From the NCBI GenBank assembly GCA_937951345.1, contig CALFCF010000036.1:1-64000 (forward strand): a stretch of DNA of 64,000 bases, given 5' to 3'. Below are positions 1 through 17,801 of this stretch, one piece after another. The notes below the pieces were generated by a model, which was not told the origin of the DNA, searched no databases, and worked only from the letters and a program-made list of their open reading frames with translations. The position numbers and the translations under genes were made by a program. The number at the start of each line of letters is the position of its first letter. The stretch's first letter is position 1. Source of the stretch: an uncultured Granulosicoccaceae bacterium. GTDB taxonomy: Bacteria > Pseudomonadota > Gammaproteobacteria > Granulosicoccales > Granulosicoccaceae.

Positions 1-219
1 ACCAGAGTCTGGCTACCTAAGCAGGTCGCTCGATTGAGCGAAATTCGTAGAAATCTACGGGTTGAGCTCAATCGAGTGAGCTGCGACGGCAGACGGGCAC
101 TGGTGGTGAATAGAAAACAGTGTGCGAATACCCGCAGCGACACTAAAACTGCTTATCTAACTGGAAATGGCTTAGTGTTCATTGTCACTGTTTTCGCCTT
201 CGTGAATAGAGCAGGCTAG
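1..219. repeat. Partial dispersed inverted-repeat element
   Basis: The window opens inside a palindrome-rich, apparently non-coding stretch. Bases 1-17 (ACCAGAGTCTGGCTACC) match in reverse complement bases 17047-17063 with one mismatch, and bases 203-219 (TGAATAGAGCAGGCTAG) match 17077-17093 exactly. Inside are an 11-bp inverted repeat (29-39 with 66-76) enclosing a 5-bp hairpin (46-50 with 55-59), and a 10-bp inverted repeat (113-122 with 186-195). A 61-codon frame at 34-219 is made of these repeats and is not called as a gene. The left end lies outside the window. Confidence 0.5.
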
Positions 220-15428: not shown

Positions 15429-16691
15429 ATGAAAGACGAAATCAAACACATTGTTGATCAGGCAGGTCAAAAGGCGCGCCGGGCTGCCAGAGTTATCGCA
15501 GCGGCTGACTCACGGCAAAAGAATGACGCGTTGCTTGCCATTGCTGAACGGATTGATGCCGCCGCTGATGCTATTCTCGCGGCCAACGCGGTTGATCTGC
15601 AACATGCGCGTGACAAGGGCATTGCCGATGCGTTGTACGACCGACTTGAACTAACGCCGGCGCGTATGCAGGGAATGACCGAGGGGTTGCGCCAAATCGT
15701 GAAACTGCCCGATCCGGTAGGCGCGTTAGGTGCGCAAACTATTCAGCCATCGGGATTGCGTATCGGTAAAATGCGCGTGCCCTTGGGTGTGATCGGTATC
15801 ATTTACGAATCGCGGCCGAATGTTACTGCAGATACTGCCGCGTTGTGTATCAAATCAGGGAACGCTGCGATTTTGCGTGGTGGCTCAGAAGCAATCGAGT
15901 CCAACAAGGCGATTGCGGATTGTATTGGTCAAGGATTAAAAGACGCGGGGCTTGATACTTCAGTAGTACAACTGATCCCTGTAACAGATCGTAACGTGGT
16001 CGGTTGTCTTATCCAGTCGACCGAGTATGTGGATGTGATTGTGCCGCGTGGGGGGAAAAGTCTGGTGGCACGCATTGCCGCTGAGGCACGCGTACCTGTG
16101 ATCAAACACCTCGAAGGTGTTTGTCATGTGTTTGTTGATGAAGCAGCGGATCTCAACAAAGCTGTGGCAGTTGCCGTTAATTCAAAAACGTTTCGCTACG
16201 GAATCTGTGGTGCTATGGAGACGCTGCTAGTTGCTGAACCGGTCGCTGTACGTTTTCTGCCCCTGGTAAAGTCGCAGCTTGATAAGCATGAGGTTGAGTT
16301 GCGTGGGTGTGAACAAACGTGTTCGATCCTGAACGGTATCGCAAAAGCTGATGAAGATGACTGGACAGCGGAATATCTGGCCCCGATTCTGTCTATACGT
16401 GTAGTCGATGGGCTGAACCAGGCGATCGATCACATAGCTGAATATGGTTCCGGCCATACGGACGCTATTGTGACTGAAAGTCTACAGGCTGCTGATAAAT
16501 TTCAACGCCTCGTGGATTCGAGTTCCGTTATGTTAAACGCGGCAACTTGTTTTGCCGATGGATTCCAGTATGGTTTGGGCGCGGAAATCGGAATAAGTAC
16601 CGATAAGCTGCACGTTCGAGGACCAGTTGGGCTGGAAGGACTGACGACCGAGAAATATCTGGTGACAGGCGACGGTACAATTCGCAACTAA
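15429..16691 (+). CDS. proA: Gamma-glutamyl phosphate reductase ProA
   Basis: A 420-residue NADPH-dependent enzyme of proline biosynthesis that reduces gamma-glutamyl phosphate to glutamate semialdehyde. It shows [31 protein letters not shown], the [12 protein letters not shown] block, and the catalytic cysteine in [11 protein letters not shown] (Cys260); the family usually has GVCNAMETLL here, a conservative change. The C-terminal [26 protein letters not shown] is typical. No proB lies in the window. It is divergent from tatD with 178 bases between starts. Confidence 0.95.
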
Positions 16692-16761
16692 TCACGTTTT
16701 CCACTATCTAAACTATTTGAAAGTAAAGGAAAAGTAAGCTGTAAAAAAACAGGAGCCTATT

Positions 16762-17079
16762 ATGAAATCAAAACAAACCGGCAAAACTCTGCACAAGCAG
16801 CGTAATCCGGTCGCACTGAATCCGTTGATGCAGCGTTCTTCAGCACATACTCATCCTAAAAATGAGCGGCGCAAAGAAAGAACACGTATCAAGCGCGATT
16901 TAAAGAAAGGTACGCATGAGTTTAATCATGCGCGCGGTGGTAGCGATGATAAATCGAGCCACTGGCAAAACACTGTGATGCAGCTTAAATCCATGCTGAC
17001 TCTGCAGAGTGTTTTGCCAGTGGCTCGGCTAACGATTGTTGTTCAAGGTAGCCAGACCCTGGTGGCGAACCCGTCATGA
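16762..17079 (+). CDS. Small basic protein with hairpin in its 3' end
   Basis: A frame of 105 codons behind a good Shine-Dalgarno (AGGAG, 5 bases before the ATG spacing). The first 64 residues are strongly basic (RNPVALNPLMQR, NERRKERTRIKRDLKKG) and look like a genuine small protein; the rest is encoded by a 20-bp inverted repeat and an adjoining dispersed repeat that supplies the stop codon. Two readings are possible. It may be an ArfA-like ribosome-rescue factor, whose mRNA is cut in a hairpin inside the gene so that a shortened protein is made. Or a mobile repeat may have landed at the 3' end and replaced the original tail. Sequence similarity to ArfA is weak, so the function is only a suggestion. 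Confidence 0.55.
   Translation: MKSKQTGKTLHKQRNPVALNPLMQRSSAHTHPKNERRKERTRIKRDLKKGTHEFNHARGGSDDKSSHWQNTVMQLKSMLTLQSVLPVARLTIVVQGSQTLVANPS
16955..17027. repeat. Perfect 20-bp inverted repeat (hairpin)
   Basis: CGAGCCACTGGCAAAACACT at 16955-16974 pairs without mismatch with 17008-17027, leaving a 33-base loop. It lies in the coding frame of the small basic protein. As RNA, a 20-bp duplex of this kind would be a good RNase III substrate; no T-run follows, so it is not an intrinsic terminator. Confidence 0.85.
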
Positions 17080-17102: not shown

Positions 17103-17801
17103 ATGAGCGATTCTTCGCGCCTATCGAGCAAACTAGCTGATCTGCCAACATCCGGTTCTGACGTCCACCAATTCAGCAGCAGAATTGGCTTGATGGGCGG
17201 TACCTTCGATCCTGTACACATCGGTCATTTGCGTACCGCAGTAGAGTTATGTGATTCGCTATCACTTGATCACATTAAATTGATTCCCTGCCATGTGCCC
17301 TCGCATCGAGCAAGCCCGGGTGCGTCGACTACACACCGTATAAATATGCTGCGCGAAGCTATCGATGGCGTCGATCGTTTGTCACTGGATACGCGGGAAG
17401 CCGAGCATGACAGACCCTCCTACACCATCGACACGCTAACCTCTTTTCGTCAGGAACTCCCTCAAGCGACGTTATTGTTTTGCATGGGAATGGATGCATT
17501 CAACCTGTTTACCACCTGGCACAGATGGGAAGACATTTTGAACCTGGCGCATCTGGTTGTGGTGGAGCGCCCGGGGGCAGTGCTGGAGGGCATTGAAGCC
17601 GATCTATTTGCGAAATACCGATGCGAAACACCGGAAGCTCTTGATGACGGGGCGGGTAGTATTTTGTTGCAGTCAGTCACACAATTTGATGTTTCGGCTA
17701 CCCGAATACGTGAACTTGTCGGGCTGAACAGGGATATCAGCTACTTGGTGTCGCCGGCTGTCAGTCGCTATATTAAGGGTCACAACCTGTATCAGGATTA
17801 A
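17103..17801 (+). CDS. nadD: Nicotinate-nucleotide adenylyltransferase NadD
   Basis: A 232-residue enzyme of NAD synthesis that joins ATP and nicotinate mononucleotide to give nicotinate adenine dinucleotide. The nucleotidyltransferase start GLMGGTFDPVHIGHLRTAVE carries the HxGH motif, and the C-terminal FDVSATRIREL is the ISSTxxR-type ATP-binding motif. The 28 residues before the first strand exceed the usual family start; a later start near LMGGTF is possible, but no ATG precedes it closely. The gene leads the nadD-rsfS-rlmH-maf-rng-yhdP cluster and begins right behind a dispersed repeat. Confidence 0.93.
   Translation: MSDSSRLSSKLADLPTSGSDVHQFSSRIGLMGGTFDPVHIGHLRTAVELCDSLSLDHIKLIPCHVPSHRASPGASTTHRINMLREAIDGVDRLSLDTREAEHDRPSYTIDTLTSFRQELPQATLLFCMGMDAFNLFTTWHRWEDILNLAHLVVVERPGAVLEGIEADLFAKYRCETPEALDDGAGSILLQSVTQFDVSATRIRELVGLNRDISYLVSPAVSRYIKGHNLYQD

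Follow-up and report, generated by a model that had tools for sequence, protein, structure and literature searches.

ORF X, located between proA and nadD in an uncultured Granulosicoccaceae bacterium, encodes a small basic protein, and a long hairpin lies inside the 3' end of its frame, ahead of the stop codon. The locus raises two questions: whether this hairpin belongs to the expression of the protein, and what such a protein would do. The DNA analyzed here, hereafter the window, is a stretch of 64,000 nucleotides.

Ribosome-rescue factors offer precedents for this arrangement. The ArfA class (PF03889) is characterized by release-factor-2-dependent rescue and by synthetic lethality with the loss of tmRNA. 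In E. coli arfA, a hairpin inside the ORF is cut by RNase III, and the truncated product is tagged by tmRNA (PMC3989581). Uncut full-length ArfA is unstable, and a C-terminal DD stabilizes it (PMC3989581). In brfA, the non-stop end is generated by a terminator inside the ORF (PMC6881298). The BrfA and ArfT papers predicted that more rescue factors exist, and described sequence similarity alone as a poor means of finding them.

The hairpin and the protein of ORF X

The features of ORF X and its surroundings are listed in Table 1.

Table 1. Positions of ORF X, its parts and its neighbors in the window.
Feature	Position	Strand	Description
proA, upstream neighbor of X	15429..16691	+	gamma-glutamyl phosphate reductase, aldehyde dehydrogenase family; name from sequence and context
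AGGAG ribosome-binding site	16751..16755	+	6 nt before the ATG of X; from sequence
ORF X	16762..17079	+	105 aa, ATG start; product small and basic; flanked by proA and nadD
Conserved basic core of X, codons 1-49	16762..16908	+	R-N-x-V-A-x-N-P-L-x-x-K-x-x-x-H ... K/R-rich to LKK; alignments A1 and A2
In-ORF hairpin of X, codons 65-89	16955..17027	+	arms 16955-16977 and 17005-17027; proposed RNase III substrate
X tail after the hairpin	17028..17079	+	sequence and length unconserved (alignment); stop TGA 17077-17079
Repeat-like short segment	17046..17093	+	contains the final codons and the stop of X; remnant of a repeat that also occurs near window 1-219
nadD, downstream neighbor of X	17103..17801	+	nucleotidyltransferase; start 23 nt past the X stop; name from sequence and context

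The 20-bp hairpin that the first-pass annotation had placed in the 3' end of a small basic gene is real, and its position at codons 65-89 agrees with that annotation. Its 20 Watson-Crick pairs are followed by one G-U pair and two more pairs (22 of 23 arm bases complementary), and the loop is 27 nt long. The minimum free energy (MFE) of positions 16940-17045 is -52.4 kcal/mol, compared with -26.6 +/- 3.3 kcal/mol for shuffled sequences (z = -7.9), and was reached by 0 of 200 shuffles. No other inverted repeat in the window is as strong: the hairpin scores 20, and the runner-up 13. Nowhere in the window did an Rfam match reach the gathering score of its family. Fifteen further codons separate the end of the conserved core from the hairpin.

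The core is rich in Lys and Arg, conserved across the alignment, and may occupy the mRNA channel of the ribosome. The AlphaFold model of X is mostly of low confidence (pLDDT 62, pTM 0.27), with a helix at residues 33-59.

The repeat-like segment lies 3' of the hairpin and is separate from it. It matches pieces near window positions 1-18 and 202-219. The two pieces, GGTAGCCAGAC(C/T)CTGGT and (A/G)TGAATAGAGCAGGCTAG, stand together directly after the X hairpin. At the start of the window they stand apart, at both ends of a stretch of ~220 bp, and the first of them is inverted. They are possibly fragments of a small mobile element.

Homologues between proA and nadD

Residues 1-63 of X, used as the initial query and followed by a profile search, yielded 14 clear members including that of the window. 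All 14 come from the same taxonomic family, and all are placed in the order proA-X-nadD; no member was detected in 25 of the 48 genomes of this taxonomic family. Their common core is R-N-x-V/I-A-x-N-P-L-L/M-x-K-[SG]-x-x-H-x-K-S-x-K-A-x-R-x-x-x-K-x-x-L-K.

Directly after this basic core, a hairpin of 20-33 bp is found in all 14 homologues, and its sequence differs among them. The interval between core and hairpin contains no stop codon in any of the 14. In 11, the frame is open through the whole hairpin and the stop codon lies past it; in the other three (L004, L008, and L011), the stop codon lies in the loop. Hairpin scores do not overlap with those of 33 control gene ends taken from these loci (p = 8e-8). 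The weakest hairpin of the family scores 11 and the best control 10, and the corresponding MFE values are -32.0 and -29.9.

Eight members can be aligned through the stem. In these, 94% of the stem cells are paired, compared with 36-46% when the partner is slid, and eight stem pairs are changed on both sides. Comparison of the window with its congener L012 shows double changes in five stem pairs and a loss of pairing in one. The conservation of the hairpin together with these compensatory changes indicates, at the level of sequence comparison, that the RNA structure is under selection, not the peptide alone.

The full-length ORFs frequently end in two alanines. Such an end (VAA, IAA, LAA, or AAA) is present in 7 of the 14 homologues and in 12 of 599 control long ORFs (p = 2.5e-8), in a test conceived after the sequences had been seen and on related sequences that represent, by eye, about five independent origins. 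Full-length X itself ends in -NPS, not -AA. A tmRNA is encoded in the genome of the window (G000:C83:22216-22587) with the tag ANDDNYALAA, and the -AA ends of the X homologues resemble the end of this tag.

A wider unnamed family and its rtcB neighborhood

The profile of the own-family core (A1) matches that of a wider unnamed family (A3) with an E value of 1e-12. The wider family is distributed in Gammaproteobacteria and some other proteobacteria, and none of the members tested falls under a Pfam or NCBIfam model. It is present in 31 of 370 genomes drawn evenly from the class. ArfA is present in 6 of the same 370, and the overlap is zero where ~0.5 is expected by chance, which is not significant. 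In one genus (g54), L077, L134, and L135 carry ArfA, and L063 carries the X family and has no ArfA match. This is suggestive only of the X family and ArfA replacing one another within the genus.

Control elements vary in the wider family. A sister group from other taxonomic families and other genomic places (L052, L054, L056, and L057) has the long hairpin with the same spacing from the core; L053 is without it. Intrinsic terminators inside the ORF, consisting of a perfect GC-rich stem and a T-tract, are seen in 7 of 74 wider-family genes (L069, L071, L073, L098, L121, L123, and L124) and at 0 of 468 control ORF ends, the controls being long open frames and not curated genes (p = 7e-7). In many other members, the ORF closes with an ordinary stop and neither structure is present. 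The function of the core, whatever it is, thus does not require the hairpin. The first-pass annotation had named hairpin-free homologues with a normal stop as the case against its arfA-like reading; such homologues do occur, but only as more distant relatives in the wider family, often located near rtcB, and not among the 14 members between proA and nadD. In L076, a perfect 28-bp inverted repeat (1342-1401) lies 3' of the stop of the small gene, outside the ORF.

An rtcB gene is located within ~4 kb in 35 of 56 named wider-family loci, assigned by Pfam in one locus and by motif in the others. This link is a feature of the wider family, and no rtcB stands beside the window gene. Elsewhere, rtcB, an RNA ligase gene, is paired with the gene of a release-factor homologue, PrfH (PMC1586002, PMC9223846). 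A Band_7/slipin gene is also near the small gene at some rtcB loci. In purple sulfur bacteria, a Band_7/SPFH (slipin-like) gene precedes the small gene and rtcB (L125:2618-3832 and L132:2675-3892), an arrangement that suggests an RNA-repair operon. Several wider-family loci encode a protein of ~300 aa between rtcB and the small gene (for example, L080:3052-3948, L110:2994-3962, and L121:3069-4004). It carries a motif like CLPxxRTLFxY near its start and has no Pfam match.

A candidate backup rescue factor

X shows no similarity to ArfA in Pfam, NCBIfam, or profile-profile comparison (hhalign probability 0.1-0.2%), and PF03889 has no match in the genome. The identity of X as ArfA was rejected on the lack of similarity in the KGKGS region, the lack of a Pfam match, and an hhalign probability below 1%. 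Profile searches of PDB with A1-A3 matched no chain, with ArfA chains present in the library as a control. Matches at PADLOC/PHROGs to PtuB (E = 0.0045) and to a "nuclear shell protein" (E = 0.0036) are weak and were dismissed as a basic low-complexity stretch. The caution of the first-pass annotation that the protein is not clearly ArfA is therefore borne out. Its comparison with arfA holds in one part, since the homologues have a hairpin of different sequence at the equivalent position, a check that the annotation had itself proposed, and fails in the other, the protein not being ArfA.

The resemblance to known rescue systems is one of arrangement. Like ArfA (YhdL), X is small and basic, its hairpin inside the 3' end of the ORF is expected to give non-stop mRNA, its unprocessed product is apparently marked for degradation, and tmRNA is encoded in the same genome. 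Unlike ArfA, it has no detectable sequence similarity or KGKGS motif, its locus differs, and many members of its family end in -AA instead of a long hydrophobic tail. BrfA (YqkK), a small rescue factor of Bacillus subtilis, resembles the terminator-bearing relatives of X in having an intrinsic terminator inside the ORF. X differs in having a long stem of the RNase III type that no T-run follows, and BrfA occurs in Bacillus; the comparison of the two proteins is at the level of the PDB profile searches, which matched no chain. ArfT of Francisella tularensis is likewise very small and basic, and its reported KKGGSTNKK stretch recalls the wider-family (L)RKGGxHxKS, a comparison by motif only. Unlike X, ArfT has 40 aa, and its gene carries neither a terminator nor an RNase III site ahead of the stop (PMC6299226). 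The proximity of many wider-family members to rtcB is reminiscent of the RtcB-PrfH operons of RNA repair and rescue; X has no release-factor-like domain such as that of PrfH, and the window gene has no adjoining rtcB. At the level of gene layout, X is predicted to work like ArfA and BrfA, and by sequence it is not ArfA.

Judging from these sequence features, X is probably a backup factor for ribosome rescue that is translated from non-stop mRNA, similar to ArfA and BrfA in control and not detectably homologous to ArfA. RNase III would cleave the transcript of X within the hairpin; in some relatives, the transcript would instead end at the intrinsic terminator inside the ORF. Soon after translating the basic core, ribosomes would then arrive at a 3' end that lacks a stop codon. 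As long as tmRNA is working, the product would be tagged and then degraded. With tmRNA in short supply, the truncated basic peptide would be released, and it may insert into the vacant mRNA channel of a stalled ribosome and recruit a release factor there. An uncut message would give the full-length protein, whose -AA end in many species may make it a target of ClpXP. The only form of X to survive would be the cut, untagged one. Two devices, the hairpin and the in-ORF terminator, are found on one core together with -AA ends, and a tmRNA-sensing backup rescue factor is the simplest reading of this combination.

X could instead be another small basic RNA- or ribosome-binding protein, acting in hibernation, ribosome biogenesis, or RNA repair as a partner of RtcB, kept at a low level by RNase III cleavage and without a role in rescue. 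What is known of the core is that it is basic and conserved, the rtcB and Band_7/slipin neighbors of relatives point to RNA repair in general, and many members have normal stops. However, a non-stop layout reached by two devices and combined with the -AA end fits the sensing of tmRNA capacity, as in ArfA and BrfA, and a function outside rescue is considered unlikely. The hairpin could also be an ordinary terminator or an mRNA-stabilizing structure at the boundary of proA-X and nadD, its overlap with the ORF having no role of its own. It does lie at a gene boundary, and T-rich tracts follow the stem in L005, L008, L011, and L016. No T-run follows it in the window, L010, L012, L013, or L015, and the absence of stop codons between core and hairpin, with most frames open through it, speaks against this explanation. 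Such overlap is absent at the control gene ends, and the sister group has the same arrangement at other genomic places. Moreover, a terminator ahead of the stop codon would itself yield non-stop mRNA. This explanation is improbable to a similar degree. The mobile repeat that the first-pass annotation offered as a simpler alternative, that is, a palindromic copy (REP/MITE-like) landed in the gene, adjoins the hairpin as the repeat-like segment, but the stem is single-copy in the 4.49 Mb genome (its other match is its own reverse strand), dispersed copies were not found, and the hairpin covaries at the same place in all 14 homologues, so that this origin is very improbable.

The reading of X as a backup rescue factor extends to its relatives with less assurance. 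There is about an even chance that they constitute an unnamed, widespread proteobacterial family of rescue factors unrelated to ArfA, in which non-stop control was repeatedly acquired along with an ssrA-like -AA degron that is genome-encoded and carried by the unprocessed product, and another branch of which became tied to RtcB RNA repair.

The conserved RNA device inside the ORF points to a candidate rescue factor in species without a detected ArfA. If this is true, it would explain how tmRNA is backed up in these bacteria and would represent a further independent origin of tmRNA-sensing control. The combination of an in-ORF hairpin or terminator, a basic core, and an -AA end would provide a sequence-independent finder for rescue factors, and ribosome rescue would be linked to RtcB RNA repair.
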